From a virus: a DNA stretch of 44,715 bases. Position numbers and translations under genes: made by a program. The stretch's first letter is position 1. Every line of letters starts with the position of its first letter. Where the stretch lies: positions 1 to 44,715 of IMG/VR virus record IMGVR_UViG_3300038441_001572; one strand, 5' to 3'. Of the stretch, positions 4,736-44,010 are shown piece by piece. A model generated the notes under the pieces. The model was not told where the DNA came from. It saw nothing but the letters and a program-made list of their open reading frames with translations, and searched no databases.

Positions 4736-7035
4736 CCCGTGTCTGTGGGTTCTTCGGAATTGAGAACTCTGGGATCGAAGGCCAGCAGGATCGAGTACAC
4801 CTGCCGCGAATCCAAGAGTTCCTCGGTCCGGGCAATGCATTCAAAGTTGCTTTGTCCGAGGACGGAATAGAATACTTCGCCACTTTTGCCGCAAAGGCCA
4901 AGGGCGCGGGATTGGATGCAGCAATCATCACGGATCAACTCCTGATGACTCAAGTCCTGCAGGCGCTTCCAGATTTCAAGCCCAGCTTCAACAAGAATGG
5001 ATCAGAGAAGAAGCTCAGTCTGAATGATTACCATGGAAGCTTCTTCACCATCCCTGGATTCAAGCTGAATCGAGAGAAGGATCTGGATGTTCTCATTCTG
5101 AATCCGCTCTCGCATCTCCGCACGGTGCCAGAAGCGCCCTTCATCTTCAAGCGATTTGTCTCCAAGATCAGCAAGCCTGAGTCCTGGTTCCCGCAAACGG
5201 AATTCACTTGGGAACTCGCAACAGAATCCAGCATCGAAGCTCTCTATGAAAAGTTCCAGACTGCCCTTCTCATCGCAGCGGACATTGAAACGGACGAGGG
5301 AAGTGAGCTTCGAACGATTAACTGCAGCGGTTATTGTGCTCTGTTTCCTGATGGCAGCACTCATGCAGTGGTCATTCCTATTGATTCTATGTGGGGTGTC
5401 CAATGGATGAAGTTGTTCAACTCTCTTCCAGCGCCAAAGGTGTATCAAGGTGGACTATACGATAACCTGTATAAACTGCGGTACGGAGCGCCGACATACA
5501 ACTGGCTCTACGACACACAACACTTGTTTCATTCGTGGTTCTCAGAACTTCCTAAGCGTCTTGACTACATTACCGCGTTTGCCCTGCGCTACGTGCGGTT
5601 CTGGAAAGATGACGGTAAGAGTGGAGGTTTGCTTGGACATTACGAATACAACGCCCGTGACACGTGGGCTACACTCAATAGCTGCCTGTCACTCTTGCTC
5701 GAAATGCCAGCCTGGGCTAAAGAAAACTATCTCCAAGAGTTCCCCGTAGTCTTCCCATGCCTGCATTGTGAAGCCGATGGCATGGCTACGGATGAAGCCG
5801 CTTTTGATGCGAGCCGCAAGAAAGTCCTAGAGACTCTTGAGCCGATCGAAGCCAGACTCCGCAAGTGGATTCATCCAGACTTCAACCCGGCAAGCTCGCA
5901 GCAAGTTAAGCAGCTGCTGAAAGTTCTCGGGTGCGCTGACAAGAATGGGAACGTAAAATCCTCAGACGAGAAAGCGTTGAATGCAGCTGCTGCTGCACAC
6001 CCTCTGAACGAATTCATTCTCTCAGAAATTCTCGAGGTGCGCGGTCTTCGCAAGCTTCGTGACACGTACTTGGTTAAGGAGAAACTCTGGAATGGAAGAC
6101 TGTTCTGCAAATTCAACCCAGCTGGAACTGACACTGGACGACTGGCATGCATGGAGTCTAGCTTCTGGTGTGGACTTTCTCTACAGACGATTCCTGGAAG
6201 AGATGGACCCGCAATTCGGTCCTGGATCAAAGCGGATCCTGGCTGGCTTCTTGGCGAGAACGATCAGCCGCAATCAGAAGCGCGATGTGTCGGATACCTT
6301 AGTGGCTGTCAGAATCTTATTGACCTCGTTGAGGGACCACACGACTACCACAGTTGGAACGCACAGAGTTTCTTCGGAGTTCCTTATGAGGAAATCTATG
6401 ATGAAGCTCTCAAGAAAACTCTGAACAAGGCGCTTCGTGATCTGAGTAAGAGAACCAATCACGGAGCAAACTACAACATGGGTGCGGCTGTCATGCTGGA
6501 TACCATGGGGCCGAAGAAGGTTGCAGAAGCGAAGCGAGTTCTGAAACTGCCAGCGAAGATGACACTGCTGGAAGTCTGCGGACACTTGCTTGCTGCGTAT
6601 GAGAAGACCTACCCTGAAGTCAAGAAGGATTGGTATGACGATATCAAGCGTACGATTGGAATCACGAAGAAGCTTGTCTCTCCGCTTGGGTGGACTCGTC
6701 ATTTCTTTTCGGACCCTAAGAGTTCTAAGCCGGCGCTCAACGCTGCGGTGGCTCACGGACCACAGAACCTTTCGGTCGGGATCATCAACAAAGTCTTTTA
6801 TCGGGTATGGCGTGAGAGCGTCTACGGTTCACTTCGTGGGGCTCTCCGTATTAAAGCCCAGATTCACGATAGCATCCTTTATGGGTACAAGGACCCGGCC
6901 GTACCGGAAATGGTTAAGTCTCTCATGGTCCTCCCCGTTCAAGTCAAAGACATCAAGGGCAAGACAAGAGAGATGATTATCCGACCGGACATTTCCGCCA
7001 AGCCCGGCGCTACGCACTGGTCACAACTCAAGTAA
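4732..7035 (+). CDS. Family A DNA polymerase with 3'-5' exonuclease domain
   Basis: The 767-aa replicative polymerase starts at the ATG at 4732 (AAAGGAG upstream), overlapping the HNH stop. The proofreading domain shows Exo I (D184-I-E186), Exo II (QGGLYDN) and Exo III (YNARD). Polymerase motif A is DQPQSEAR beginning at D511, where most relatives have DYSQIELR. Motif B is RDLSKRTNHGANYNMG. Motif C is IHDS with H712 and D713, where HDE is usual. The catalytic aspartates are therefore kept although motif A is divergent. There is no 5'-nuclease domain. The next gene is a DUF3987-like helicase, and the pair probably forms the core replisome. Confidence 0.96.
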   Translation: MTRVCGFFGIENSGIEGQQDRVHLPRIQEFLGPGNAFKVALSEDGIEYFATFAAKAKGAGLDAAIITDQLLMTQVLQALPDFKPSFNKNGSEKKLSLNDYHGSFFTIPGFKLNREKDLDVLILNPLSHLRTVPEAPFIFKRFVSKISKPESWFPQTEFTWELATESSIEALYEKFQTALLIAADIETDEGSELRTINCSGYCALFPDGSTHAVVIPIDSMWGVQWMKLFNSLPAPKVYQGGLYDNLYKLRYGAPTYNWLYDTQHLFHSWFSELPKRLDYITAFALRYVRFWKDDGKSGGLLGHYEYNARDTWATLNSCLSLLLEMPAWAKENYLQEFPVVFPCLHCEADGMATDEAAFDASRKKVLETLEPIEARLRKWIHPDFNPASSQQVKQLLKVLGCADKNGNVKSSDEKALNAAAAAHPLNEFILSEILEVRGLRKLRDTYLVKEKLWNGRLFCKFNPAGTDTGRLACMESSFWCGLSLQTIPGRDGPAIRSWIKADPGWLLGENDQPQSEARCVGYLSGCQNLIDLVEGPHDYHSWNAQSFFGVPYEEIYDEALKKTLNKALRDLSKRTNHGANYNMGAAVMLDTMGPKKVAEAKRVLKLPAKMTLLEVCGHLLAAYEKTYPEVKKDWYDDIKRTIGITKKLVSPLGWTRHFFSDPKSSKPALNAAVAHGPQNLSVGIINKVFYRVWRESVYGSLRGALRIKAQIHDSILYGYKDPAVPEMVKSLMVLPVQVKDIKGKTREMIIRPDISAKPGATHWSQLK

Positions 7036-7049
7036 ACAAGGGCAACGCC

Positions 7050-8345
7050 ATGAGTGCAGCAGTCCTCCCACTTGCTCAGAAGCCAGACCTCTTCGACTTG
7101 TACTTCGAATACACGAAGAACACTGAAGCGACAACCATTCACCACAGGTGGTCTATGGTTGGCTGTTTGAGTGCGCTTCTAGGTCGACAGGTTTGGCTTC
7201 CATTTGGTGAGTTCCGAATCTTCCCGAATCAGTACATCATGCTGATCGGGGAGAGCGGTGCGAGAAAGTCCACCGCGATCAAGATGGCGAAGAAGGTTCT
7301 CTCCGCGCACGGGTATAAGAACTTTAGTGCGGAGAAGACCACAAAGGAAAAGTTCCTCCTTGACTTGGAGGGGCTGGAAGAAGCGAGTGATGCAGAGGTT
7401 GCAAACACTCAGGTCATGCAGAATCTTGGCTTAGGAGATATTCATGCAAGCGAACCCAAAGAAGTCTTTATCGTTGCTGATGAGTTCAACGACTTCATGC
7501 GCACCGGGGACACCGAATTCCACAGCATGCTCGGGGCGTTGTGGGACTGGGACGATGAAACCAAAGGATACACACAGCGACTCAAGAACTCCAAGTCTGT
7601 GTCAATCTACCAGCCAACAATCAATTTGCTCGGAGGAAACACGCACGTCGGATTCGCAGATATGTTTCCTCCTGCGTCGCTTGGACAAGGCATCCTGAGT
7701 CGGATGCTGCTGATCTTTGCAGAACCGAGCGGGCGAAAGATTGCATTCCCTGAGCCTGCAGATGCAGCAATTCGTGCGCAGCTTTCAGGTCTTCTTACTC
7801 AGATCAAGGAGAAGATCCAAGGTCCGATGAAGATGACGGACAAAGCAAAGGACATGATGCAGACGATCTACAATAGCTATTCTGGTGTGACGGACATTCG
7901 ATTCAACAGCTACAACACCAGACGCTATACGCATCTTTGGAAGATGTGCATTCTGGTTGCCGCAGCGAGACTCAAGATGGAAGTGGGAGTTGCAGAGGTG
8001 CTCTATGCGAATACGGTTCTCGCCTACGCAGAACATTTCATGCCGAGAGCGCTCGGAGAATTCGGCAAGAGCAAGAACTCAGAAGTTGCAGGGAAGATTC
8101 TGCAGGTGCTGGAGAAAGCTGGACACGCACTCACTGTAGATCAGCTCTGGGAACAGGTTCAGAGCGACTTGGACAAGATGCAGGATCTTGCCTTGTTGCT
8201 GGAAGGTCTGAGACAGGCTGACAAGATTCAGTATGTCAAAGAGCTTAGGGCATTCATCCCTAAGAGAAAAGTCCTCAGCACGAAGGAAGTTTACGTGGAC
8301 TACAACTTGTTGAGGGAATTCAAAACCGTGAAGCTGGGAAACTAG
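7050..8345 (+). CDS. DUF3987-like replicative helicase/ATPase
   Basis: The protein is 431 aa with Walker A GESGARKST (G67 to T75, K73) and Walker B VFIVADE (D144, E145). The sequence around them (LLGGNTHVGFADMFPP, then GQGILSRMLLIFAEP) is typical of the DUF3987 family of phage and plasmid primase-helicase-like proteins. It lies 14 bp after the polymerase gene. A C-terminal region of about 90 residues is helical and may be a winged-helix-like DNA-binding part. No primase zinc finger or primase catalytic motif is seen, so any primase activity would have to come from elsewhere. Confidence 0.88.
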   Translation: MSAAVLPLAQKPDLFDLYFEYTKNTEATTIHHRWSMVGCLSALLGRQVWLPFGEFRIFPNQYIMLIGESGARKSTAIKMAKKVLSAHGYKNFSAEKTTKEKFLLDLEGLEEASDAEVANTQVMQNLGLGDIHASEPKEVFIVADEFNDFMRTGDTEFHSMLGALWDWDDETKGYTQRLKNSKSVSIYQPTINLLGGNTHVGFADMFPPASLGQGILSRMLLIFAEPSGRKIAFPEPADAAIRAQLSGLLTQIKEKIQGPMKMTDKAKDMMQTIYNSYSGVTDIRFNSYNTRRYTHLWKMCILVAAARLKMEVGVAEVLYANTVLAYAEHFMPRALGEFGKSKNSEVAGKILQVLEKAGHALTVDQLWEQVQSDLDKMQDLALLLEGLRQADKIQYVKELRAFIPKRKVLSTKEVYVDYNLLREFKTVKLGN

Positions 8346-9803: not shown

Positions 9804-12800
9804 CTACTCGGGGAGGGAACTAGGTGCTTCAGCGAGAGTTGAATAGTCCTGCAGAGGCTCTCCACCCATGAGAGCTTGCATCTTCTTGCCGTAGGGAGAG
9901 CCAACCTTCTGTGCCATCTGGTTCACCACGGAAGTGTTGGCATCGCGACTCCAGCGTTGGAGAGAACTGGAGAAGGTTTCGATCCGTCCACCGCTCTTGG
10001 CGTAAGAACTCATGAAGTCTTCCATGTCTTCTGCATCTGGCATCTGATTGTTGCTGAGTTTAGTCTTGACTGCCTGACCAAGAGCATCAATCTTTGCCCG
10101 ATCCATTGCTTCGTAGGACTTGTTGCGATAGAGCTGATTCAGCGCGACTGCTTCGTCCATCGGACGTGCACCCATAAGGCGCGGAATCCCACCGAAATTC
10201 ATCACGCGATCTGGAATCCGTGCAAGCATGCTTGTCGTCTCCAGGTCATTCGCAGAAGAAATCAGACTGCCTTTCCCAGTAGTGGTTTGACCCGCCAGAA
10301 GTTGCGCAAATCCTGCAAGCGGTCGATTCCAACCTTGATGCTCCAACGCTTGCAACATAGAAGAGCTTACATCCGCACCCTGTGCCACCTGACGGCCGAA
10401 TCCTGCCACCGCTCCTGCAAGTTTGATACTCGCAGAGACAGCTGGAATGTCAACAGGATTGATCGGGAGAATGGAAAGATGACGAGGATTGATGTCGCCA
10501 CGAGAATAGAGCGCAGGTGCCTTCTCTCCAAAGAGCGGGAAAGCGCTTGCAGTTCCATAGAGCATCCAATCTCCAAGCTCCTTGTTCGCAGCGGGCAGGA
10601 AACTGTACGCATCTGTGTGGCTGGTATTTCCACTCGCACTGCCGATCAGATGCTGATTGATGGCATCGAAGAATGGCAGACCATTCATCCCATAGATGGA
10701 GCTTTGCAGTCCAGCAAAGGTAAGGAGCGCTCGCTTATTTCGATCTTCCATGTGTCGGAAGAGTTGCTGCAGCACGTTGAACGCATAAGTCTGGAAAAGA
10801 CCAACTGCCGCTCCGGTAGTTCCTTGGAATACCACCGGGCGTTGGCTAGAGATGTAGTTTCCTTGGACGCGATTGACGAAGGACGAAATGTACGCATTTT
10901 GTTCCTTAAGATCCATGATCCCCTTAGCAACCAGAGGATCGCTCAGTTGTCGCATGACATCTGCAGAGACAAAGCGAGTGAACTCTTCAGAGAACGTGTT
11001 CCCTGTGATCTTTGCACCCTTCTCAATCGCTGCATTCACCTTGCCATTCCACTCATCGAACTTCCGATTCGGAACGTAGGCAAGATCATCAAGCACTTCA
11101 TGGTAGAGCGTGGCAACATCCTTGATGTCACCATTGGCCTTGTACCGCGCGATCAGCGCTTCCTTGTCTGCGCCGAAAAAGTTCTTAACCGCTTGGCCCA
11201 ACAGCTTAGTTGTTGAGGGAACAGCACCTTCAGCGCCTGGAACTTTCACGCTGGTGAGCTGACCGAGTGCACCAACAAGTTCAGGATCGCGTGCTGCAAG
11301 CGCCCGAATACTCGCCAACTCTGTGCCCAGCATGATCGGAGTGCTGATCACGTTCACAAGCGAGTTAGCAAAGTCAAACCGCAAGACAGTCGTGGCGAGC
11401 CACATGTTTGCCTTTTGGAATGCGATCTTGATTGCGTTCTTCGGCACCTTCTCATTGGCGACAAGATAGTCCTCCATGGTTTTGTAGGGCGCATTCAGCC
11501 CCACATCTTCCATGAGTTTGTTGGCCTTGTCCAGACTCGCAAGATCCTTCCCCTTGCTGCCGCGGAATTCGCTCCACAAGTCATCCAGCACAGAGTAAGT
11601 CTTCGTGCCGATCTTGTCCACGAACTCGTTAAGAGAATCAAGCAGCGGGAACTCTCCTTGCTTGGAGATGTTCAGGGCAGTCTTGATGTAGTCTCCAAAG
11701 GGATCCTGAATTCCCTTGCGAGCAGCGAACATACCTTTGGCAACAGAAGTAGACGCGGATTGAAACTGCTCCGAGAGAAAGCTGAGTTCACTAAAGAACT
11801 GCCGATGCTTGACTTGAACGGCTGATCGAACAAGATTGTCGCTTGCATTCCCGTGCCACCGTACATAGTCTTCGAGTACGTTTTCAGCACGTGTTTCAGG
11901 AAAGAAATCTCCCAGGACACCCTGTCGCTGCAGCTGGCTGTTGACTTTGCTTTCGTTGATCTGCATGCTGTAGTCATACTCACCTCGTGCTTTGAAGAAC
12001 TTCGCAGTGTCTTGCTTGAAGATGACTTCATAGTCGTCTCCAACCTTGCTGGCCAGCTGACGAAGTTGCTCTTCATTCTTCGCCGTAATCATGGCAAGAT
12101 CAGTGCTCGCACCGATCCGCTCCTTCGTCCGCACGAATGCGAAGAAAGGATAGCGACGCGTATCGACTGGAGGAACATAGACGCTGCGAGCATCCAGCTC
12201 CCGTGAAATTCCAGTGGCATTGAGCAAGCTCGTTTGCTTCTGAATTCGCTCTGCATTCAAGCCAGTGGAATTCTCCAGGAAGTCTGCAACTTTCGAGTCC
12301 TTGATTCGATACTCGCCAGCGATCTTCTGGTCCGGAGTTCCTTGCGCCTTCACGTAGTTGATGGCATCGTCAAGATCATCCACCTTTCCCGACTCGAAGA
12401 GCTTCACAGCTTCACGATCCACGAGGCGGACTTGATCGCTGAATTCATCTCGCACCATGTAGTAGCGACGGGAGTCTCGACGCAGCGCAGTCGTCAGAAC
12501 ACCAAGTTCCGCGGCTGCATCCACAGAGTCTCGAATCGCATTCACATTCGGAGCGAGCTGCTGGATCGTTGCATCTCTCCACTTCTGGCTCACCAATGCA
12601 GTCTGCTTACCAGTGTCCTGGACAAAGAGTTCTGCTTGCCGACCGTAGTCTGCATTGCTCGCACCAAACGCTTTCGCACCTGCACCTTGCTCACTCACGC
12701 CCTGAATGAGATCCTTCGGCGCGTTGAGGAACCGTTCTGCATCATCTCCCATCACCGCACCGAATGCATTGTCGCTTTCGTTCTGACGGATCTTGAGAGA

Positions 12801-28266: not shown

Positions 28267-28557
28267 TTACTGATGACTAGCGGGGGATTCTGGAGGATCT
28301 TCTTCCGTTGGGATTGGAGGAGTCAACTCCGACAGGAGTTCTTGAAGCACTTCTAGCCGTGACTTCGCGCACTCGTGTTCGATTACTGCAACTTGCAAAT
28401 TCAGTGTGGGATCGAATCGAAACTCCAACACTGCTTTCGCGTAAGCTGCAATCTTGTTCTGAAGGAAGAAGTAAGTGTAGGCAGAGACCGCTCTCGCCTT
28501 CACATCTTCATCCGGTTCCAGCTGAACTTCGCTGAATGTATTTGCGTACTGTTTCAT
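28267..28557 (-). CDS. Hypothetical protein, 96 aa, between portal and scaffold
   Basis: The ATG at 28557 overlaps the portal stop (ATGA at 28554-28557). The protein is helical (DEDVKARAVSAYTYFFLQNKIAAYAKAV) with a Pro/Glu-rich C-terminus. Small helical proteins at this location in podoviruses are often head-assembly accessories. No family is recognised. Confidence 0.78.
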   Translation of the reverse strand: MKQYANTFSEVQLEPDEDVKARAVSAYTYFFLQNKIAAYAKAVLEFRFDPTLNLQVAVIEHECAKSRLEVLQELLSELTPPIPTEEDPPESPASHQ

Positions 28558-30503
28558 TGCGCACCCGATTGCGGTTGATTCTGCGGAAGCTGCTCAGGTG
28601 GGACGGTGTTTTCTGCCGAAGCTTGCTGAGCTTGCAACTGCATGAATTGCTTCTGCTGCGCTTCAGTCCGCTTGAAGTTATTCATCCAAGTGGCGCCTTG
28701 AAGTTTCATCCAGTAGAGGAACATTCCGAAGATGTCATATTGCGCCATCGCAACCGGGAGAGCCTGCGCTGTCTGCATGAAAACCATCATTAGTTCAGGA
28801 CTCGCAATCTTCTCCATCGGAAGCACGCCATCCGTGAGTTTGAACTCCATCTGCTGCTCGCGCATCTTCACAGGATCGATCGCAACTTCTCTTGCTTGAT
28901 CACGATTCAGCAGTTTTCCTTGTGGCTGGTGCATCAAAATGTTGCTCTTGATGGTCTCCTTCACAGGAGTCATAAATTGCTGCTCGATGCTCATACTCAC
29001 AAGTTGCTGACGTGAGTTGGAGTTCTGCATGGTCTGCGTGAACTCTGTGCGCGTCTTGTTCCCCTTCTGGAACTGACCACGATCCACCTTATTCTGACCA
29101 GCGGCGCTGTCAGCCATCTGGCTAATCATGTCGCTCATCTGAAGGTTGGTGTTTGTGCCGTCTTCGCGGAATGGGATTTGGAAGACTGCCTTCCCGATAT
29201 CATCTCCCTTGAACTGGCTCGCATTTCGAAGTGGAATACGCGCAACCGCGCTGGCAGGGTCAATGTCTGCTTTGTTGATGAAGCGCTCATTGTAGATCAG
29301 GCGGTCGAAAACTTTCCGACGCTGCGCTTCCAGCGTGACATTCCAGAGAGCGCTGCTCATATCTTGGAATGGAAGCGCCGTATCCAGCATGGATTGCGTC
29401 TGATACCCCAAATCATCTTCATAGGGCTGCATGATGAAGACAGGAAGATAATCATGCGTGGAGACAATCTCTTCCACATAGATCACCCACTGCCAATTCA
29501 CAATGATCCCGTAATACATCGTGGGTTTGTTTCCTTGGCGCCCAAAGTCACTTGGAAGCGCGCGGCAAACAAAGTGAGTTACGAGGTAGTAATCCTTGTA
29601 GTTGATTCGATCACGCGTACCGGCTGGTTCCATGTTCGCCCACTGCAGCCAATTGGTGCCTTGCTGAGTCAGATTCGTGACATTGAGATACGGATTGATT
29701 TGCGGCACGTAGTAGTTCGTGGCCGAATTGGAGTTCCCATTCGTGCCCTGGTAGCCAGATTCAAATGCTTCCTTCAGATTGCTGGTGCGTTCTGAATCCA
29801 GCGTGTTCACGAAGCGCTTGAATGCCATACGCGACATGAGTTTATTCCAGCCGAATGCTTCCCCTTCTTCATGGTGCTTCGCTGGCAGAACTCGAAAGTC
29901 CATAAAGCAGTTGTAGACGTCAATCGCTTCAATGGCGTTCGCACCCACAACCGCTCTATTTACTGCCGACTTTCCCGCTGCGGATTCACTGGTGCTGGTG
30001 CTGATCTGCGAAATCTGCGTACGTTTCCACGGCACAAACGCAGGTGCGAAGTTGTGCTTGAATCCGTTGCGGAAGACTTTGATTAGTTCACGGCTCCAGC
30101 CGTTCAGCGTGGAGTGGTTCCCAATTACAGTTTCCATCTGAGTTGCGGCATCCATGTTCTCAGGCGTGCTCACCACACCGAAGATTGGATAGCTGCTCAG
30201 ATAGACTCCAGTCTGATAGGCCACTGCCGATTCGATTTGCGGCATCACGATTGGAACGTTGATGTCGTGAATCTTTCGCTTGGCACTTCCAGTCAAGCAG
30301 CTCTGAATTTCTCGCACGCGACTTGCAGTCTGATCCAGCTGCATCTGATACGCGCGGTCACGGAACTCCAGCATGTTGCGGAAAGTTCCAATGTCGTTTG
30401 CGCATCCTTCTGCAAATCGCTTCGCATACTGCAGGAAGTACGTTCGCTGGTGAATGTTCAATCCGCCGAGAAGACCGCTGAGGTCCGTGGGTGCTGTTGC
30501 CAT
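28554..30503 (-). CDS. Portal protein, 649 aa
   Basis: Size and features fit a podovirus portal. It has an N-terminal helical wing, a central region with RKIHDINVPIVMPQIESAVAYQTG, a clip and stem region (GIIVNWQWVIYVEEIVSTHDYLPVFIM) and a C-terminal Gln-rich, probably coiled-coil barrel (EAQQKQFMQLQAQQA). The dodecameric portal is the DNA entry and exit ring and docks terminase. It lies directly downstream of the terminase genes, as in most tailed phages. Confidence 0.9.
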   Translation of the reverse strand: MATAPTDLSGLLGGLNIHQRTYFLQYAKRFAEGCANDIGTFRNMLEFRDRAYQMQLDQTASRVREIQSCLTGSAKRKIHDINVPIVMPQIESAVAYQTGVYLSSYPIFGVVSTPENMDAATQMETVIGNHSTLNGWSRELIKVFRNGFKHNFAPAFVPWKRTQISQISTSTSESAAGKSAVNRAVVGANAIEAIDVYNCFMDFRVLPAKHHEEGEAFGWNKLMSRMAFKRFVNTLDSERTSNLKEAFESGYQGTNGNSNSATNYYVPQINPYLNVTNLTQQGTNWLQWANMEPAGTRDRINYKDYYLVTHFVCRALPSDFGRQGNKPTMYYGIIVNWQWVIYVEEIVSTHDYLPVFIMQPYEDDLGYQTQSMLDTALPFQDMSSALWNVTLEAQRRKVFDRLIYNERFINKADIDPASAVARIPLRNASQFKGDDIGKAVFQIPFREDGTNTNLQMSDMISQMADSAAGQNKVDRGQFQKGNKTRTEFTQTMQNSNSRQQLVSMSIEQQFMTPVKETIKSNILMHQPQGKLLNRDQAREVAIDPVKMREQQMEFKLTDGVLPMEKIASPELMMVFMQTAQALPVAMAQYDIFGMFLYWMKLQGATWMNNFKRTEAQQKQFMQLQAQQASAENTVPPEQLPQNQPQSGAQ

Positions 30504-30533: not shown

Positions 30534-32042
30534 TTAGAAGCTCATCTCAATGTCTTCCGTGTGAGTTGCTTTGCTTCCCTCACGGCTGCTGACATCGAAG
30601 ATCTTACGGATGATGGCATCTCCATGGTCGCGGAGAATCTCTTCCACATAGCCGATCGGATCAATGATGTCGTCCTTGTTCTGAACTTTGAGCGGATTCC
30701 ACTCCATGTACTGTGCAATGACAAGCGAGCGCACTCTGGGATGGAGGTAGATTTCGGGATAGCCAGTCTCCACACTCGGGATGAGTTTGAGATAGCCTTT
30801 CTTGATCCGCGTATTCTTTGCAACTCCCTTCGGACTCACAGGGAGGAATTCGAATCCAGTAATCACACCGATCTTATTCAGCTCAGGTGTCTTGCAGAAC
30901 TCTTCAAACCAGAAGAGCAGAGTGCTCTGATAAGCCACGTCCTCCACAAAGATCGCTCTCGTGTTCCGCTCCAGCCCCATCTCAATTGCTTTTCTGATGG
31001 TGTCCACTGGAGAGAAGGTTCCGAAGAGGATTTCATCCTTGATTGGGATCCCATCCTTCACTTCGTAATGGCTGATCGTGCAGTCATCTCCAGTCTTCTT
31101 CCCGCTGGATGGATCGATCAGGATGAAACTTCCCTCGCCTTGATCATCCGTGAGGAAGTGATCTGGCGGATGTGCGATCTTGTTGGGATCAATACCAGAG
31201 CTCAGTGCGATGTCAGTGCTGTTCAGAATCTCAGTGATGAATGCTTCGGGATGCCCCATTGCCGTGTCTGATTCGAACTCTTCCAGCAGTTCATCAATCG
31301 GCTTGAGTTCTTCCCAGAGTGAATCACCTTCTGCAGTGATCCCACCCACAATCAGGCTCGTCCATTCCTTGTTCTGCTTCAGCTTCGCAAGGATGCAATT
31401 CTGCGGGTACATGTTCCCCACGTAGATGAAGGTGCATCCGAATGGGCTTCGTGCCTTCATTAGCGTGGTGGTCATCCAGAGGGAGAGAGCATCTGCAAGC
31501 TCTTTGTTTGGTGCATCTTCCCGCTCTTGAATGTCGTCCATTACCATCACATCAGGGCGAGAATTCTTGCGGTTGATGCCTCGAACGGAAGTTCCAGCAC
31601 CTGCAGCCCACAGAATGATCTGGCGACCTCGGAAGTGAAACACTTTCGTTGCGGCTTGGTTCACCTCGACTGCTGCGTCCCAGTGCCCAAAGACTTTCCG
31701 CACGCTTGGAGCACTCAACATGTCACAAATGTCTGCAATGATGTTGATTGCTTTGGCTTCTGAAGCGCAGACTACGAGAATGAACTTCTTGTGGCTGAAT
31801 AGAATGTACCAGACACAGAGGATCTTGATGAAGGTGGTTTTGGCGAATCCACGCGGAATGCCAATTGCAAACTTCTCCACTCGCTTCGCGAATTGCGTGA
31901 GTAGATGGAAGAGCACCACATAGAAAGACGGGAAGGCGAAGAGGAAATCCGCACCCATCACAAGTGCGGCTAGAAAGTTGAAGTCTGCTTTCGCAGTCGC
32001 TGCTGCCTGAGATGGCGAGACCGCATATTCCTCTACGCTCAC
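30534..32042 (-). CDS. terL: Terminase large subunit, 502 aa
   Basis: The ATPase domain has the Walker A-like GIPRGFAKTT (61-70) and Walker B DVMVMDD (164-170). The nuclease domain has three acidic clusters: ILIDPSSGKKTGDD, IFVEDVAY and KDDIIDPIGY. These are the RNase H-like metal ligands that cut the concatemer. The gene overlaps terS by four bases. The protein translocates DNA into the head through the portal. The packaging mode (headful or defined ends) cannot be decided from this protein alone by eye. Confidence 0.95.
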   Translation of the reverse strand: MSVEEYAVSPSQAAATAKADFNFLAALVMGADFLFAFPSFYVVLFHLLTQFAKRVEKFAIGIPRGFAKTTFIKILCVWYILFSHKKFILVVCASEAKAINIIADICDMLSAPSVRKVFGHWDAAVEVNQAATKVFHFRGRQIILWAAGAGTSVRGINRKNSRPDVMVMDDIQEREDAPNKELADALSLWMTTTLMKARSPFGCTFIYVGNMYPQNCILAKLKQNKEWTSLIVGGITAEGDSLWEELKPIDELLEEFESDTAMGHPEAFITEILNSTDIALSSGIDPNKIAHPPDHFLTDDQGEGSFILIDPSSGKKTGDDCTISHYEVKDGIPIKDEILFGTFSPVDTIRKAIEMGLERNTRAIFVEDVAYQSTLLFWFEEFCKTPELNKIGVITGFEFLPVSPKGVAKNTRIKKGYLKLIPSVETGYPEIYLHPRVRSLVIAQYMEWNPLKVQNKDDIIDPIGYVEEILRDHGDAIIRKIFDVSSREGSKATHTEDIEMSF

Positions 32043-34188: not shown

Positions 34189-34478
34189 GGGGGCATGTAT
34201 CAGTGTATCATGTATCATCTCGGTGGGGTACCTCACACCCTCTGCCCTAATCGCTCCCTATTGTTGCCTAACTATTCCCCTGTCTAGACTTATAGAGTTA
34301 TAGGGGGTTATGTCTTTAAAGTCTTAAAATTAAAGCACCCCTAAATTAAGGCAAATACAAATAGCCTAACCCAACAATAACCACACAGCCCATTCTAACT
34401 TTCAAGGATTGACGGAATGGGCATGCATGGGAGGGGGTAGAGGATTATGATACATGATACATCGATACATATGGCCCC
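34189..34478. repeat. Non-coding element bracketed by inverted TGTATCA arrays; origin or MITE candidate
   Basis: On the left, TGTATCA occurs at 34196, 34204 and 34211. On the right, its complement occurs at 34448 and 34455, and with one mismatch at 34463. Spacings mirror each other (8 and 7, then 7 and 8). The two 24-base arms (34195-34218 and 34447-34470) match inversely at 22 positions. Flanking GGGGGC (34189) and GGCCCC (34473) extend the symmetry. Between them lie AT-rich sequence and further inverted pairs (TATTGTTG 34259 with CAACAATA 34372; GCCCATTC 34388 with GAATGGGC 34415). No gene fits inside. Iterons plus AT-rich DNA suggest an origin; terminal inversion also fits a small mobile element. 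Confidence 0.85.
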
Positions 34479-34512
34479 TATTGAAAGTTTCTTATTCTAG
34501 TGAAAGGTGAAG

Positions 34513-34721: not shown

Positions 34722-34931
34722 ATGATCGAACCGAACATTCAACCAGACTTTTCCATTGGTGATGTTGTGCTTGTGACCTGTGGAGAATACAAAGGAGCGG
34801 ATGGAGAAGTCATCGCTCGATTCAGCGTGCAGGGAGGAATGATTTATCAAGTAAGTCTGCACGATTACGGAGTAGAAACCTTCAGGCCTGAATGGATCAA
34901 ACTTCTCATTCGCGCAAAGAAGAAGCTTTGA
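34722..34931 (+). CDS. Small KOW/SH3-like protein, 69 aa
   Basis: The ATG at 34722 follows AGAGGAAAACTAATC. The sequence FSIGDVVLVTCGEYKGADGE, then VIARFS resembles a KOW or SH3-like beta barrel of the kind found in transcription and translation factors, and it ends in a basic tail (KLLIRAKKKL). Such a fold could bind RNA or polymerase. For a phage early protein a transcription-modifying role is attractive, but the similarity is short and by eye. Confidence 0.72.
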   Translation: MIEPNIQPDFSIGDVVLVTCGEYKGADGEVIARFSVQGGMIYQVSLHDYGVETFRPEWIKLLIRAKKKL

Positions 34932-34940
34932 TTTACTTCT

Positions 34941-34983
34941 CACCAGGGTATTGACAGAGGGAGACTTCTGTGATACCCTGGTG
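34941..34983 (+). promoter_or_regulatory. Promoter overlapped by an 11-bp inverted repeat (operator-like)
   Basis: CACCAGGGTAT (34941-34951) and ATACCCTGGTG (34973-34983) are perfect inverted repeats. TTGACA (34951-34956) starts at the edge of the left arm. After 17 bp, TACCCT (34974-34979) lies within the right arm and keeps the key TA...T of a -10 box. A dimeric regulator on these arms would cover both promoter boxes. If transcribed, the same bases form an 11-bp hairpin. The start point would be just before the structured element at 35000. Confidence 0.6.
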
Positions 34984-34999
34984 CGTTCGTTGGTTGGTG

Positions 35000-35112
35000 T
35001 GAGGAATGGGAATAGGCAGTGAGCGAGAGGCTGCCGACGGCACAGCCGGAGGCGGGTGTTCAGGAAATGCGCCACCTTTATGCAGCATAAATCCCACTGT
35101 TCCCATTCCTCA
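35000..35112 (+). ncRNA. Candidate structured RNA closed by an 18-bp stem
   Basis: TGAGGAATGGGAA (35000-35012) pairs perfectly with TTCCCATTCCTCA (35100-35112). After a four-base bulge, CAGTG (35017-35021) pairs with CACTG (35095-35099). Inside are GGCTG/CAGCC (35029-35033 with 35043-35047), GGCG/CGCC (35051-35054 with 35070-35073) and TTTATG-CAG-CATAAA (35077-35091). This gives a multibranch fold of about 113 nt with no reading frame. It lies between an operator-like promoter and the gene at 35168. It could be a small RNA, a 5' regulatory leader or a protein-binding scaffold. I match it to no known RNA family. Confidence 0.65.
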
Positions 35113-35167
35113 TAACATCAGTTTGAATCTCTAACTGAACACAGCGCAAGAAAGGCAGGAAGTCTCA

Positions 35168-35410
35168 ATGTCTGAAATCATTGAACATTATTCTAGGATG
35201 TGCTTTCGCTATGCAGGCCTTGCAGCCGCACATAAGAAGAATGCAAAGTCTAAGAAGTGGAATAAACAATATCAACAGCAAGATTGGGAATACTATCTGA
35301 TGAATGAAGCTCAGGTTATTCTCTATGCTGAACGTTTGATGAAACGACTGGAAGAAGAAATGAATCTTCCGTTGTTGGTTAAACTCTTCAAGGAAGGGAG
35401 CGTGAAATGA
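35168..35410 (+). CDS. Hypothetical protein, 80 aa
   Basis: The ATG at 35168 has AGGAAG 10 bases upstream. The protein is helical and rich in Tyr, Lys and Gln (RYAGLAAAHKKNAKSKKWNK, then MNEAQVILYAERLMKRLEEE). The frame is open upstream through a copy of the TGAACACAGCGC word (35136), read as LNTAQE, but there is no start codon with a ribosome site there. The stop overlaps the next gene by ATGA. Confidence 0.75.
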   Translation: MSEIIEHYSRMCFRYAGLAAAHKKNAKSKKWNKQYQQQDWEYYLMNEAQVILYAERLMKRLEEEMNLPLLVKLFKEGSVK

Positions 35411-35539: not shown

Positions 35540-35773
35540 ATGAATATCTGGCACAAGCTTGCAGAAGAGGCTCTGAATGGAGTGTTTCAATCTCCGGTCC
35601 CTGTGAGTGTTTGTGGGAGACTCAACTTTGACTATCCAGGGATTGAAGGTGCAAAGCTTGGAACGCACTTTCTGACCTGCAAGCGTGGCATTCAAGACAA
35701 GTTTTACGATGCTACTCCCGAAGAACAATGTCTCTTCCTTCTGTTTTGTGGAGAATCGTATGAATCTGTATAA
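35540..35773 (+). CDS. Small early protein, 77 aa, LAEEAL family copy 1
   Basis: The ATG at 35540 follows TAGGAGAAACTAATT. The protein starts NIWHKLAEEALNGVF and ends EEQCLFLLFCGESYESV. The same opening (IFHTLAEKAFEG) and ending (EEQALALLFIGEMYEDS) appear in the gene at 35911. A looser version appears at 39023 (RLWEEALKKN, then MLFFALMLGDPYSES). The family is therefore repeated within this genome. Function unknown. The conserved C-terminal helix is hydrophobic and could be a dimer or target interface. Confidence 0.75.
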   Translation: MNIWHKLAEEALNGVFQSPVPVSVCGRLNFDYPGIEGAKLGTHFLTCKRGIQDKFYDATPEEQCLFLLFCGESYESV

Positions 35774-35918
35774 ACTCACTCGCGATGGCAAAGATATGGG
35801 TCAATGCCATGCTGATGATGAAGAAGATGCAATCTGGATCATGATGACTCGGAGAGGTTATCCGATGAACTATGTTGAACGTGCTAAGTGGCAAGCAGAG
35901 GAAGCAGATCATGACTAA
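35760..35918 (+). CDS. Hypothetical protein, 52 aa
   Basis: The ATG at 35760 has GGAG at 35750-35753. A longer in-frame start at 35685 would lie deep inside the previous gene with no ribosome site. The protein is acidic and compact (KDMGQCHADDEEDAIWIMM, then RRGYPMNYVERAKW). It overlaps the genes before and after by 14 and 8 bases, so it belongs to a coupled string. Confidence 0.7.
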   Translation: MNLYKLTRDGKDMGQCHADDEEDAIWIMMTRRGYPMNYVERAKWQAEEADHD

Positions 35919-36147
35919 CATTTTCCACACTCTGGCGGAAAAGGCATTTGAAGGACGGTATCTTCTTAATACTGCCTTCTGTATGTCAGAGGATCTCATG
36001 CCTTATTCAAACGCACTCAGATTCTGGCAGGATTGGGTAACCTGTGCAGTGAATTCAGCTGAGTTTTATGAATCCACAAACTCAGCTGAAGAACAAGCCC
36101 TCGCACTTCTTTTCATTGGAGAAATGTATGAAGATTCGAAAGATTAA
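35911..36147 (+). CDS. Small early protein, 78 aa, LAEEAL family copy 2
   Basis: The start chosen is the ATG at 35911, which overlaps the previous stop region. The protein is a paralogue of the product of 35540, with the same N-terminal LAEKAFEG and the same C-terminal EEQALALLFIGEMYED. The middle is diverged (SNALRFWQDWVTCAV). Two copies only 140 bases apart suggest local duplication followed by divergence. Function unknown. Confidence 0.75.
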   Translation: MTNIFHTLAEKAFEGRYLLNTAFCMSEDLMPYSNALRFWQDWVTCAVNSAEFYESTNSAEEQALALLFIGEMYEDSKD

Positions 36148-36268: not shown

Positions 36269-36501
36269 ATCTCTATGAACTTGCACATCATCCGGAAGCA
36301 TGGAATGTAAATCAACTCGGAAATAACGAACAGGAGGTGAATCATTGTTGGTTTGGTCACGCGGATAACTCTACAATGAAACAGTTCTACATGTTGATTG
36401 AATTACATGAGAATGTTGCCAATCACACAGATGAGAATGAATTCCGCATGCATCTCCTGTTCGTATACTTCGCAACTACTGATGAAAAGGAATGGCCGTG
36501 A
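36265..36501 (+). CDS. Hypothetical protein, 78 aa
   Basis: The ATG at 36265 follows AAAGGGAATCAA and overlaps the previous stop. The protein begins MNLYELAHHPEAWNVNQ and ends with a hydrophobic stretch and acidic tip (MHLLFVYFATTDEKEW). That layout is reminiscent of the LAEEAL family next door, although residue identity is weak. It is soluble and His-rich. No function recognised. Confidence 0.72.
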   Translation: MNLYELAHHPEAWNVNQLGNNEQEVNHCWFGHADNSTMKQFYMLIELHENVANHTDENEFRMHLLFVYFATTDEKEWP

Positions 36502-36821
36502 AAACCTCTGAATTCCTCAAGCGAGCTAAATCTCTCATTGATTCACCTGAGAAGTGGACACAAGGTGTGTGCGCTAGGAATATTGACGGTAAAGAAGTAA
36601 GTGTTCATTCTCCTTCAGCAGTTTGTTTCTGTTCTGAAGGTGCAATTCACGCGGCTACAAATCAGTTTAATATCAAACAACGAGCTAATAAGTATGCAAT
36701 GTTGCAATCTGCAGTCGGATCAAACCTAGAAGTCTTTGAATATAATGATTCCCACACCCATGCAGAAGTAATGCTCGCATGGGATAAAGCAATTAGTTTG
36801 GCTGAAAGTGAAGGAGATTAA
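36498..36821 (+). CDS. DUF6197-like protein, 107 aa
   Basis: AAAAGGA abuts the ATG at 36492 but stands seven bases from the GTG at 36498, which also overlaps the previous stop as GTGA, so I prefer the GTG. The pattern WTQGVCARNIDGKEV, then SAVCFCSEGAI, then FEYNDSHTHAEVMLAWDKAI is that of the DUF6197 family. The gene at 37322 is a diverged second copy (SAWTRNKYARN, CMFCCLGAI, FNDDPATTHDDVLRVFDLAI). The family is common in phages and actinobacteria and has no established function that I know of. Confidence 0.78.
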   Translation: MKTSEFLKRAKSLIDSPEKWTQGVCARNIDGKEVSVHSPSAVCFCSEGAIHAATNQFNIKQRANKYAMLQSAVGSNLEVFEYNDSHTHAEVMLAWDKAISLAESEGD

Positions 36822-37321: not shown

Positions 37322-37696
37322 ATGACACCGAAAGAAGTTCTCATTGCGGGAAGGTTGCGGATTCAGTCTGAATCAGCGTGGACTCGGAATAAGTACGCAA
37401 GAAACGCGCTTGGTGCGGCAGTCGCATCCACGCATCCAAACGCATGCATGTTTTGTTGCCTTGGTGCAATAGATCATGAGCTGACATGGTCTGAAGATCG
37501 AGCAGATGCTGCAAGTTGTCTGTTAAAGGCAGTACGTAAACTGCACAAAAACAAACCCGCAGTTTACGGTGTGCCTGAATTCAACGACGATCCAGCCACT
37601 ACGCATGATGACGTCTTGCGAGTGTTTGATCTTGCAATTGATCTTGCGCGTGAAGCGGAAGAAGCAGCAAAGGAGAAGCAAGATGGAGCAGTCTAA
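37322..37696 (+). CDS. DUF6197-like protein, 124 aa, second copy
   Basis: The ATG at 37322 follows GAAAGGAATCAATC. Its three conserved blocks align with those of the 36498 gene, including the Cys-rich ACMFCCLGAIDHE and the FNDDPATTHDDV motif. The C-terminus adds a charged Lys/Glu tail. It overlaps the lipoprotein gene at its 3' end. Two DUF6197 genes in one small genome suggest subfunctions rather than redundancy. Function unknown. Confidence 0.78.
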   Translation: MTPKEVLIAGRLRIQSESAWTRNKYARNALGAAVASTHPNACMFCCLGAIDHELTWSEDRADAASCLLKAVRKLHKNKPAVYGVPEFNDDPATTHDDVLRVFDLAIDLAREAEEAAKEKQDGAV

Positions 37697-40418: not shown

Positions 40419-42257
40419 ATGGCCCTCAAACCATCAATCCAAGCGCTTCTCGATCAAGCCAAAAGAAATCATGCGGCACGATTAGAAGCAGCGCTTGCAG
40501 CCGGCAGCACGCCAACATCGGCGGTCGGATCTGCAGTCCTCCAACAAGTTAAGGAACTCCATGTCAAATCCGCGCAGCCCACTAAGCACTCCATCTTGGG
40601 TGCTTCAGGATTCACTCCTTCAACGGGTGTTAGCCTCAACGAAAAGCAATCAACCGCAGTTGAACTCGCAATCCGAGGCAAAAGCATCAATCTTATTGGT
40701 GCAGCAGGTACAGGAAAAACTACAACAACTCGAGAAGTCATTGCACAACTCGTGCGACTCCCACACATTTCTCAGCTTAGTGCAGGCACAAAGCATCTTG
40801 TTAAAGACGCACCGGGAATTGTTGTCATTTCTTTCACAAATAAAGCAGTAAACAATCTGAAGAAGTTCCTCCCGCAAGAACTCCAGCTGCACTGCATGAC
40901 TTATCACAAGGTGCTGCAGTATGGTCCTGTTCGCTACCAGAATGAGCCTGGGAATCCTGCAGGTGGAAGCACGATGCGATTCGAGCCCCACTATACAGAA
41001 GACAACAAGCTTCCTCACATCTCTTGCGTGATTGTGGAAGAGTCTTCCATGGTGAGTGAAGAACTTCATCGCACCTTCCTCAAAGCGCTTCCCAATCCTG
41101 ACGCCACCCAATTCATCTTCCTTGGAGACTTGAATCAGCTGCCTCCGATCTTCGGACCCAGCATTCTTGGCTTCAAGCTTCTCGAACTCCAAACCGTGGA
41201 GCTAACTCATGTCTATCGTCAAGCACTTGAATCTCCAATCATTACACTTGCGCACAAAATTCGGGAGGGTAGAGGTTTCAGCGCGAACGGAAAAGGGATC
41301 TTGGAAGAAGGTGGCTTCACTGACGATCGAGCCGAACACGGGAAAGTCACAATCCGCCCCTGGAAAAAGAAAACAGAAGCACGCCCGGCGATGAAGGTGT
41401 GTCTGCATAACTTCCTCGTTCCCCTTGTGACTGCTGATGACTATGACTTCAATGAAACTGCTATTCTCTGCCCGTTCAACAAGTCGTTTGGAACTCTTGA
41501 ACTTAACAAATTCCTGGCTCAGAGTTTGGGGGAGAAACGAAAAGCAGAGGTCTTTGAAGTATTGGCCCGAGGAACTGCCAGTTATTGGGCCGTGGGAGAT
41601 AGAGTTCTGGTGGATCGACGAGAAGCAATTATCCTCCGCATTGAACCAACAGTTGGATATGCCGGAAAATTTCCGCAAGAAAGCTCAGTCTCTCTTGATC
41701 GCTGGGGTAAGTATCGAGATGGAAAGGAACATCATGCGAGTCCTAGTGACGAAGATCGAGATGTGAAACTTCTTCTCGGACTGGAAGCACTGGAAAGCAT
41801 GGATCTTGGAGATGGAGAGGAACAGAAAAATGCAGCAAGCCACACCATCACTGTCGAGTTTGTCGACTCTGGAGCTACACAATCTCTGTCAAGCTCTGGG
41901 GACATCAATTCCATGCTCTTTAGCTACGTACTCACTGTTCACAAAAGTCAAGGATCGGAATGGAAAAGGGTTATTCTGCTCCTACATTATTCACATAACA
42001 GCATGCTCTCAAGGGAGCTACTTTACACAGCAATTACTCGGGCTAAGCACGAACTCTTCATCATCTGCGAGCCGGATCGGAAAGGAATTTATAACAGCCT
42101 TACAAAAGCTGCAAAGAGCCCGGAGATTCACGGGGTTACGCTAGAAGAGAAAGCACACTACTTCAAAGCGAAGAAGAGAAGCATGCAGCGGATGGAAGAC
42201 AAAGAAGCAGCAGCGGAACATCCCGCGAAGAAAATGGCAGACTTCCAAGGCATGTAG
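40419..42257 (+). CDS. SF1 helicase, RecD/Dda-like, 612 aa
   Basis: Helicase motifs appear in order. Motif I is GAAGTGKTT (94-102, K100). Motif Ia is VISFTNKAV. Motif II is VIVEESSMV with Glu 207 where Asp is usual. Motif III is GDLNQLPP (236-243). Motif V is LTVHKSQGSEW (near 505). Motif VI is LLYTAITRAKHEL (near 535). This is the SF1B (RecD2/Dda) pattern, so 5'-3' unwinding of DNA is expected. T4 Dda helps start replication and clears proteins from DNA. The C-terminus is Lys-rich and polar. The N-terminal 60 residues are an extra segment of unknown role. Confidence 0.93.
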   Translation: MALKPSIQALLDQAKRNHAARLEAALAAGSTPTSAVGSAVLQQVKELHVKSAQPTKHSILGASGFTPSTGVSLNEKQSTAVELAIRGKSINLIGAAGTGKTTTTREVIAQLVRLPHISQLSAGTKHLVKDAPGIVVISFTNKAVNNLKKFLPQELQLHCMTYHKVLQYGPVRYQNEPGNPAGGSTMRFEPHYTEDNKLPHISCVIVEESSMVSEELHRTFLKALPNPDATQFIFLGDLNQLPPIFGPSILGFKLLELQTVELTHVYRQALESPIITLAHKIREGRGFSANGKGILEEGGFTDDRAEHGKVTIRPWKKKTEARPAMKVCLHNFLVPLVTADDYDFNETAILCPFNKSFGTLELNKFLAQSLGEKRKAEVFEVLARGTASYWAVGDRVLVDRREAIILRIEPTVGYAGKFPQESSVSLDRWGKYRDGKEHHASPSDEDRDVKLLLGLEALESMDLGDGEEQKNAASHTITVEFVDSGATQSLSSSGDINSMLFSYVLTVHKSQGSEWKRVILLLHYSHNSMLSRELLYTAITRAKHELFIICEPDRKGIYNSLTKAAKSPEIHGVTLEEKAHYFKAKKRSMQRMEDKEAAAEHPAKKMADFQGM

Positions 42258-42289: not shown

Positions 42290-42318
42290 TTGACATCGCC
42301 CCCGACCTGTGAGACAGT
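42290..42318 (+). promoter_or_regulatory. Possible promoter of the 42398 gene
   Basis: TTGACA (42290-42295) is a perfect -35 box. At 17 bp the -10 position reads GACAGT, a weak match, so activation may be needed. The palindrome at 42263 is well placed for a regulator. The gene's strong codon bias implies that some effective promoter drives it. Confidence 0.4.
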
Positions 42319-42397: not shown

Positions 42398-43111
42398 ATG
42401 ACTGAAGTCGCACAAGAGAACACCCTGGCAGAAGAAAACACCGGCGCTGTCGGACAGGTCTCGTCGCCCACCACGATGGTGGAAACGAAGTTCACGTTCA
42501 AGCAACGCACGATCAAGGACGAGAACGGCAAGGAAATCGGCAAGGCAAAGAAGCAGCCTGCACTGGTTGCAAATCTGCCGCAACCGACGAAGACCACGAT
42601 TGCACAAGTTCTGCAATCGGAAGATCCGGCGTACGCGAAGCTGTCGCAACTCTTCCTCGATACGATTCACGGCATCGTTCGCGACCAAGCCAAGAGTCAG
42701 CTGGATGAAGTGATCGAAGGTTTCGGCATGGACGACAAGACCGTCACTGCTGACAATCTGGATTACGACAAGCTCGATCTGATCTACATTGCCAATCTGG
42801 AACCGGCTCAACGCGGCGCCCGTGCGATCACCGAAGAAGAGTTCAACACTTTCTTCGAAGATTACGCGAACGTCATGGTGGTCGCAACCGGCAAGCCGCT
42901 GGAAAAGATCAAGAACCACATCGAAATCTTCCGCAAGCCGGCGCGTGTTCGCAACGCAAAGGAAATGCTGCAAGTCCTGCTCATGCAGCTGGACCTGTAC
43001 ATCACGAAGACTGCAGCTCTGGAAGACACCGGCGAAGTTGCCACCCGTCTCCGCGCTCGCTTCGCCAAGTGGCTGGAAGAAGAAGAGAAGTTCGACACCA
43101 GCATCCTGTAA
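42398..43111 (+). CDS. Probably highly expressed hypothetical protein, 237 aa
   Basis: The ATG at 42398 follows AACTTTTTGAAAGACAATC, a leader shared with the 3737 gene. The protein is acidic and soluble. It has a disordered N-terminus (residues 1-35), a beta segment (ETKFTFKQRTIKDENGKEIG) and a long helical domain (SQLDEVIEGFGMDDKTVTAD onward). Codons are strongly biased (CTG, GGC, CGC, AAG and ATC dominate) compared with most early genes, which suggests abundant product. I recognise no family. DNA-binding, host take-over or a nucleoprotein role are all possible. Confidence 0.85.
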   Translation: MTEVAQENTLAEENTGAVGQVSSPTTMVETKFTFKQRTIKDENGKEIGKAKKQPALVANLPQPTKTTIAQVLQSEDPAYAKLSQLFLDTIHGIVRDQAKSQLDEVIEGFGMDDKTVTADNLDYDKLDLIYIANLEPAQRGARAITEEEFNTFFEDYANVMVVATGKPLEKIKNHIEIFRKPARVRNAKEMLQVLLMQLDLYITKTAALEDTGEVATRLRARFAKWLEEEEKFDTSIL

Positions 43112-43223
43112 GCTGGAACGTTTGATTAGACTCCCTAGCACAGTGTAGACTCCGTCCCACTCCCTGCTAAGTCTAATCTGCGAGTGCTGAGCACCACTAT
43201 AAACTGCTCACCAAGTTCTGTTT

Positions 43224-43295
43224 TCTAGTCTCCACTCTTGTGGTGTGTTCCTCCCTCACAGCATTGCCAGTGCAACCGCTTGAGTGGAGACTAGA
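43224..43295 (+). other. 14-bp perfect inverted repeat (long hairpin)
   Basis: The arms at 43224-43237 and 43282-43295 pair without mismatch. After a 2x2 internal loop, five more pairs are possible (GTGGT with ACCGC, one wobble). The hairpin is flanked by direct copies of AAGTTCTGTT (43213 and 43303). It is the strongest single stem in the non-coding region. Confidence 0.8.
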
Positions 43296-43388
43296 GAGTA
43301 GAAGTTCTGTTCTGTTAGTTGCATATTGGCACCAGTAAGACTGTGTGGGCGTTACGCGCGTTCAGACTCTTCACTGGTTAAAACAAGA

Positions 43389-43468
43389 CCTGCCCAGCAT
43401 GAATCGGCTGGTGTTCCAAGTTGGGTTCGATTCCCGTAAAACGAGAGCTTGGTAAGTGCTGAAGCAGG
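43389..43468 (+). ncRNA. Multibranch element containing a tRNA T-arm-like hairpin
   Basis: CCTGC (43389) closes on GCAGG (43464). Inside are a hairpin CCAGC/GCTGG with an 8-base loop and a second stem CCAAG/CTTGG (43416/43448) around GGG-TTCGATT-CCC (43423-43435). TTCGATT is a canonical T-loop sequence. An acceptor stem and a D-arm cannot be matched, so this is either a tRNA-like domain or a decayed tRNA, not a confident tRNA gene. Confidence 0.35.
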
Positions 43469-43608
43469 ATGCGCACTTGGTCAGTATGCAACTAAGAGAG
43501 TAGAGAGTTGATTGCGGTTTAGCTCCGCAGTAGGATAACACACTCCCTGAAGTTGATTCGGTAAAGCTGCTTTATGCTAGCGACTCGCTACTCTCCCAGA
43601 CTGTAACA

Positions 43609-43625
43609 TGAACACAGCGCGAAAA
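43609..43625 (+). repeat. Copy of the TGAACACAGCGC word (others at 9232, 35136, 40387)
   Basis: TGAACACAGCGCGAAAA here matches TGAACACAGCGCGCGAAAA at 9232, TGAACACAGCGCAAGAAA at 35136 and TGAACACAGCGGCACAA at 40387. A coding variant TGAACGCAGCGCAAGAA occurs at 32 and 44678. Two copies lie just upstream of intrinsic terminators (9254 and 43653). Two others lie at gene boundaries. Confidence 0.75.
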
Positions 43626-43652
43626 CTGTAGAAAATTTCAAAGGACAACCTG

Positions 43653-43687
43653 ACCCTCAAGTCTTAACCGGCTGTGAGGGTTTTCTT
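43653..43687 (+). terminator. Intrinsic terminator ending the non-coding hairpin region
   Basis: ACCCTC (43653-43658) pairs with GAGGGT (43676-43681), followed by TTTCTTATT. It separates the hairpin region from the gene at 43720 and would define the 3' end of any RNA made across 43112-43690. Confidence 0.75.
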
Positions 43688-43719
43688 ATTGGCACTGGCA
43701 ACGAGGAAAGGAGGATGAA

Positions 43720-44010
43720 GTGCTCGAAGGAACACTGAATCAAATCTTCAAGAGGATCACAACAGGAGAAAAAGTTGAAGCGCAATTCACCGACAAGCAA
43801 GAGTACGAAAGCGCACGAACAGGATTGCTCCGCAAATTCCGCAAGGACGTGGAAGCATTCACGAAGTGCGGATTTCCTTCTCCCATGGAAGGGAAATATC
43901 TCAAGTGCAGTTGGGATGGCGGAGAACTTTCCGGTAGCTTTGAGCTTGCTGACGAAGCACGTAAAGCTCACGCTGGTAAGAGCAAAGTCTACGGAATGAA
44001 AGACGTCTGA
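43720..44010 (+). CDS. Hypothetical protein, 96 aa
   Basis: The GTG at 43720 has AAAGGAGG at 43708-43715. The ATG at 43715 is in another frame and overlaps that site. The protein is basic and helical in the first half (LNQIFKRITTGEKVEAQFTD, then LLRKFRKDVEAF) with a CGFPSPMEGKYLKCSW segment that might form a small ribbon. It is the first gene after a terminator, so a local promoter is needed. None with two good boxes is visible. Confidence 0.75.
   Translation: MLEGTLNQIFKRITTGEKVEAQFTDKQEYESARTGLLRKFRKDVEAFTKCGFPSPMEGKYLKCSWDGGELSGSFELADEARKAHAGKSKVYGMKDV

Follow-up and report, generated by a model that had tools for sequence, protein, structure and literature searches.

A candidate structured 5′ leader domain ahead of a small-gene operon in an uncultured podovirus-like phage

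We analyzed a 113-nt element at positions 35000-35112 of a 44.7-kb virus record (the whole stretch is hereafter termed the window). The fold potential of the element is statistically real, and its sequence and setting indicate a candidate leader or small RNA from one genome, not an established new RNA family. Our preferred explanation, to which we assign about an even chance, is a structured domain in the 5′ leader of a small-gene operon that would influence, in cis, how stable the operon mRNA is or how it is processed. The features of the region and of related loci are listed in Table 1.

Table 1. Coordinates of the element, its surroundings, and related features (window positions unless a relative is named)
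Feature	Position	Strand	Basis or remark
DNA polymerase	4732-7035	+	
Primase-like gene	7050-8345	+	
Portal	28554-30503	-	
Large terminase, phrog_38 group	30534-32042	-	
11-bp inverted repeat CACCAGGGTAT...ATACCCTGGTG around promoter, possible operator	34941-34983	+	inverted-repeat search
Promoter TTGACA-N17-TACCCT, extended -10 (TGTGA)	34951-34979	+	consensus match; predicted start near 34986
P1 5′ arm, closing helix (16 bp, first 13 perfect Watson-Crick)	35000-35015	+	fold, inverted-repeat search, pair probabilities
P2 arm, symmetric GA/GA internal loop, ACA apical loop	35025-35061	+	pair probabilities 0.4-1.0
P3 arm (GGA.UGC...GCA...UCC)	35063-35094	+	outer pairs p 0.85-0.89; inner pairs about 0.3-0.5
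P1 3′ arm, closing helix	35097-35112	+	fold, inverted-repeat search, pair probabilities
Small hairpin TCAGTT...AACTGA, between element and gene	35118-35138	+	fold of full leader
First gene 3′ of leader, 80 aa	35168-35410	+	heads run of small plus-strand genes
Dda-like helicase	40419-42257	+	
Second strict promoter match	42290-42318		upstream of gene 42398-43111
Stems downstream of gene 42398-43111	43216-43303 and 43305-43505		in ORF-poor stretch 43110-43720
Origin-like blocks in relatives	L058 5670-5935; L060 4915-5260; L064 6425-6730		
Origin-like block, L059 and L002	between 7870 and 7560 on L002		

The arms TGAGGAATGGGAA (35000-35012) and TTCCCATTCCTCA (35100-35112) pair perfectly over 13 bp, as a first-pass annotation of the sequence had described, and the terminal inverted repeats of the element comprise 21-nt arms with 86% complementarity. 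The annotation's view that such a stem is improbable by chance was borne out: perfect 13-bp inverted repeats with a spacer of 20-150 nt were expected 0.17 times per shuffled window, and the real window contained two sites, the element itself and 43224-43295. The proposed comparison of the fold with shuffled sequences was equally favorable, with a predicted RNA fold of -52.6 kcal/mol (z -5.25) and none of 200 dinucleotide shuffles equally stable. The z value was the lowest among 788 non-overlapping 113-nt tiles from both strands, in a tiling that was in register with the element and favored it, and two other tiles lay no more than 0.15 above it; by GC-corrected energy in sliding 120-nt windows, the element ranked sixth. 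The minus strand folded almost equally well (z -4.91), so that folding alone does not give the strand.

The best structural model was a three-way junction, in which a 16-bp closing helix (P1) carries two arms (P2 and P3), in place of the three internal hairpins seen by the first-pass annotation. P1 continued past the 13 bp through U14-G100, A15-U99, and G16-C98 (p about 0.75), and all of its pairs were Watson-Crick apart from one G-U. Of the closing stem as originally drawn, the 13 bp stood; the four-base bulge and the five further pairs (CAGUG/CACUG) corresponded to a minor conformer (p about 0.25; -50.7 versus -52.6 kcal/mol for the preferred fold), 16 continuous pairs being favored.

The element is situated in the intergenic gap 34932-35167, between genes 34722-34931 and 35168-35410, and the neighboring genes are all on the plus strand. 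It does not fill this gap exactly, as had been supposed, the gap also including the promoter and a 55-nt tail. The promoter that had been noticed just upstream was confirmed at the sequence level, with boxes TTGACA at 34951-34956 and TACCCT at 34974-34979 and a TGA before the -10 box. Because the promoter ends 20 nt upstream of the stem, on the same strand, the element is most likely the first structured domain of the operon leader, which is predicted to be approximately 180 nt long, the element ending 55 nt before gene 35168. The stem is followed by TAACATCAG without a U-run and is therefore not an intrinsic terminator. Thus the sequence has the order of a structured 5′ leader, with a promoter upstream, a gene downstream on the same strand, and no transcription stop between them. 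The element made no difference to the predicted accessibility of the ribosome site (mean 0.42 unpaired with it versus 0.40 without it), which argues against a simple switch; as to riboswitch- or attenuator-like behavior, ligand-free fold prediction gave no alternative fold that made a terminator or masked the ribosome-binding site.

By codon usage, the frames across the element look non-coding. An ATG frame of 42 codons (35006-35134) does cross the element, contrary to the initial statement that no open frame with a start was present, as do two frames on the minus strand (57 and 119 aa); the codon-usage scores of the 42-, 57-, and 119-aa frames were -0.51, -0.06, and -0.19, compared with 0.30 ± 0.15 for the real genes of the phage and -0.30 ± 0.23 for wrong frames. 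ARAGORN detected no tRNA or tmRNA in the element. The product of gene 35168-35410 had no PHROG or Pfam match above the cut-off. The small-gene operon encodes two DUF6197 proteins of unknown function (36498-36821 and 37322-37696), and genes 35540-35773 and 35872-36147 are mutual paralogues with 32-34% identity.

Among phages with names, the closest were distantly related podoviruses. The terminase showed 35% identity to those of Pseudomonas phages 119X and PaP2, and the polymerase showed 27-35% identity to those of Aeromonas phage P5, EBPR podovirus 3, Polaromonas phage Tiera, and the 119X/PaP2 group; the phage group is uncultured and podovirus-like. Using the terminase and the helicase as search baits, we collected the closest uncultured relatives, L058 (record G001), L059/L002 (G002), L060 (G003), L061 (G004), and L064 (G005), in which the helicase or terminase was 61-69% identical to that of the window. 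L082 was identical to L060 over the element locus. The terminase bait retrieved a single distant fragment from bacterial genomes and thus gave no lead on the host.

The syntenic region between the homologues of genes 33480 and 39253 was compared in the five relatives, all of which keep the same layout: an origin-like repeat block, a promoter, an untranslated leader of 80-180 nt (80-90 nt in L058-L060), and small genes. On this comparison, the arrangement of promoter and leader is conserved in the group and the element itself is not. A strict form of the promoter motif (TTGACA-N14-TGnnAnnnT) occurred twice in the contig, at the element promoter and at 42290, versus 0.125 expected. One or two strict matches each were found in G001 (36547), G002 (16360, minus strand), and G003 (5969 and 10392), again in the module that follows the origin-like block and, in G003, also upstream of the homologue of gene 42398; G004 contains looser versions only. 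The phage appears to rely on a few strong, host-type promoters, with the element in the leader of one of them. Inverted repeats surround the promoter in L059 and L060 as they do in the window, and several near-consensus sigma70 promoters sit within inverted repeats that may be operators.

The origin-like block lies directly after the 33480 homologue (34190-34490 in the window) and consists of an AT-rich core flanked on its left by short direct repeats of a word and on its right by that word in inverted orientation. The repeat word varies among relatives (TGTATCAT in the window, TGTAGC in L058 and L064, and TGTAAC in L059) while the layout is constant, and the core shares a word like AAAGxACCCCCT among relatives. 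In L064, a small gene includes an extended tract of GCT/GAT triplet repeats (8050-8290), a possible slippage region.

Homologue searches with the element, in collections that may lack the very closest records, recovered the window alone. No Rfam family was matched, either in the whole window with Rfam 15 at gathering scores or in a lax search of 34900-35200, which returned chance matches far below the cut-off. Searches of phages and plasmids by blastn, with the region and with the element, gave short chance matches only, exact-pattern scans of 2.9 million viral contigs with both arms and the 19-nt inner hairpin gave zero matches, and gene 35168 as bait found no relative. The covariance model, another check that had been proposed, was a single-sequence model (R1) and, run against 89 sources and 21 whole records, found only the window.

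The leaders of the relatives could not be aligned meaningfully with that of the window (37% column identity, one invariant column). They were weakly structured (z -2.3 to +0.2), and no long-range stem was present in the five syntenic leaders (best score at most 23 versus 42 in the window), from which we conclude that the stem is not required for the job of the leader in the group. A stem-loop in L058 (6220-6298; TTGAC...GTCAA and TGCCCAC...GTGGGCA; z -2.28) was considered as a homologue and rejected; it shares neither sequence nor arm arrangement with the element and overlaps its own promoter. Because the stem is absent from these leaders, no compensating change is observable, and the pairing cannot be called compensated, as the first-pass annotation had it. 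That annotation had named a stem broken in relatives as evidence against its proposal; the stem is indeed absent there, but the leaders are unalignable and not demonstrably the same element. Its "new structured RNA" thus stands as a structured candidate, given the fold, the promoter, and the lack of a coding signal, and is unsupported as a family with compensatory changes.

Next, we considered long stems downstream of gene 42398-43111. Stems with a score of at least 34 that started no more than 330 nt downstream of homologues of this gene were found at 17 of 30 loci versus 4.4% of controls (360 random stretches from the same 30 loci); when a spacing of 40 nt or more between the arms was required, the figures were 10 of 30 loci and 2.5% of controls. 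The 30 loci include near-duplicates (e.g., L144/L145 and L151/L152), which lower the effective number, and ordinary terminators may account for a few of the 17. The loci with such stems included L137, L139, L140, L121, L155, L167, L151, L144, L065, and others, and the 5′ arm of several distant relatives starts inside the T-run of the terminator of the gene. The arm sequences differ widely among lineages (TCTTTTCTGTTGTGCATTGG/CCAGTGTACAACAGAAAAGA, CTTTTTGTTCAGTAGTCTTG/CAAGACTACTGACCAAAGAG, and CTGAATTCTTATTGTCTCTACTTAG/CTAGGTAGAGACAATAAGAGTTTAG), suggesting that the sequence changes but the base pairing is maintained. By sequence comparison, these stems are a better-supported candidate for conserved structure than the 35000 element. 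The data suggest that the phage group habitually carries long stems and that the missing sequence homologue of the 35000 element is weak evidence against function. The element is not thereby a member of the downstream set, its location and arm composition being different. The ORF-poor stretch of the window also contains tRNA-like pieces at 43427-43439 and 43516-43545, GGTTCGATTCCCG resembling a T-arm and TTTAGCTCCGCAGTAGGATAAC a D-arm, which neither ARAGORN nor Rfam matched; L060 has a real tRNA-Leu (TAA) at the corresponding place (11466-11552).

Two other RNA- or insertion-based explanations bear on the same observations. The 113-nt domain may be cut from the leader (e.g., by RNase III at P1), or end otherwise, and act as a trans-acting small RNA on other RNAs or bind a protein; its compactness and high stability, the coincidence of its ends with helix ends, and the strong promoter nearby are in keeping with this proposal, but the 3′ end has no terminator and the searches gave no homologue or conserved loop, and we regard it as unlikely. 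A more specific form, in which a stable phage small RNA of approximately 113 nt, freed from the leader, would target host or phage RNA in trans, or bind a phage protein, and would be one of a fast-changing set of long stems whose shape persists while the sequence turns over, is very unlikely. Between these two in probability, and still quite unlikely, is a chance palindrome or a neutral insertion, for instance what remains of a small mobile element bounded by terminal inverted repeats. The occurrence of the element in one genome only, its GC content (57% versus 51% for the contig), and the length of the leader minus the element (about 70 nt, near the length in L058-L060) would fit such an origin. 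Terminal inverted repeats, as in MITE-like elements, are present, but the ends show no target-site duplication (TTGGTTGGTG before, TAACATCAGT after), no second copy exists in the window or the searched collections, and pairing within the arms makes the fold far stronger than those of shuffles.

A DNA-level structure, namely a cruciform or single-strand hairpin serving replication or regulation, is the least probable reading. Both strands fold well, the closing helix is Watson-Crick except for a single pair, and the origin-like block, which recurs in relatives, is about 0.5 kb away. However, the relatives retain that block without the element, and the position right behind a promoter on the gene strand suits RNA better.

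Among known systems, early mRNAs of T7-type phages have structured 5′ leaders and hairpins processed by RNase III. The element resembles these as a long intergenic duplex on a putative early transcript, with a promoter on one side, several small genes in a row on the other, and no terminator, whereas it is a three-way junction instead of a simple hairpin and is known from the sequence of one genome. The phi29-type pRNA is a three-way junction closed by a terminal helix. The element has the same architecture and a similar size range, but it has no Rfam match at any useful threshold, and the motor of its phage is not of the phi29 type, the large terminase belonging to the phrog_38 group. Comparative genomics has also identified phage-associated candidate structured RNAs, such as manA, wcaG, c4, and Lacto-int, which are defined by covariation over many homologues (PMC2864571). 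Like them, the element is intergenic and structured, and some of them are in 5′ leaders of phage genes; unlike them, it is one sequence without an Rfam match.

In the preferred explanation of a structured 5′ leader domain, host RNA polymerase would start at about 34986 from the 34951-34979 promoter, and the nascent RNA would fold at 35000-35112, the 16-bp helix closing the three-way junction. The folded domain would then stand 55 nt ahead of the small-gene operon (35168 onward), where, as a rigid structure, it would most likely act in cis to protect the operon mRNA or set its processing. A long duplex is the type of helix cut by RNase III-type enzymes. Transcription from the plus strand is what we infer from the promoter and gene order, and a role in RNase III processing or stability is suggested by analogy with phage mRNAs in general.

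Structured RNA is seldom sought in phage genomes beyond model systems. If transcribed, the element would be a clean case of a structured leader under one of the few strong host-type promoters of the phage. More broadly, some long intergenic stems of the group seem to stay in position as their sequence is replaced, and homology-based RNA surveys would miss such a pattern.
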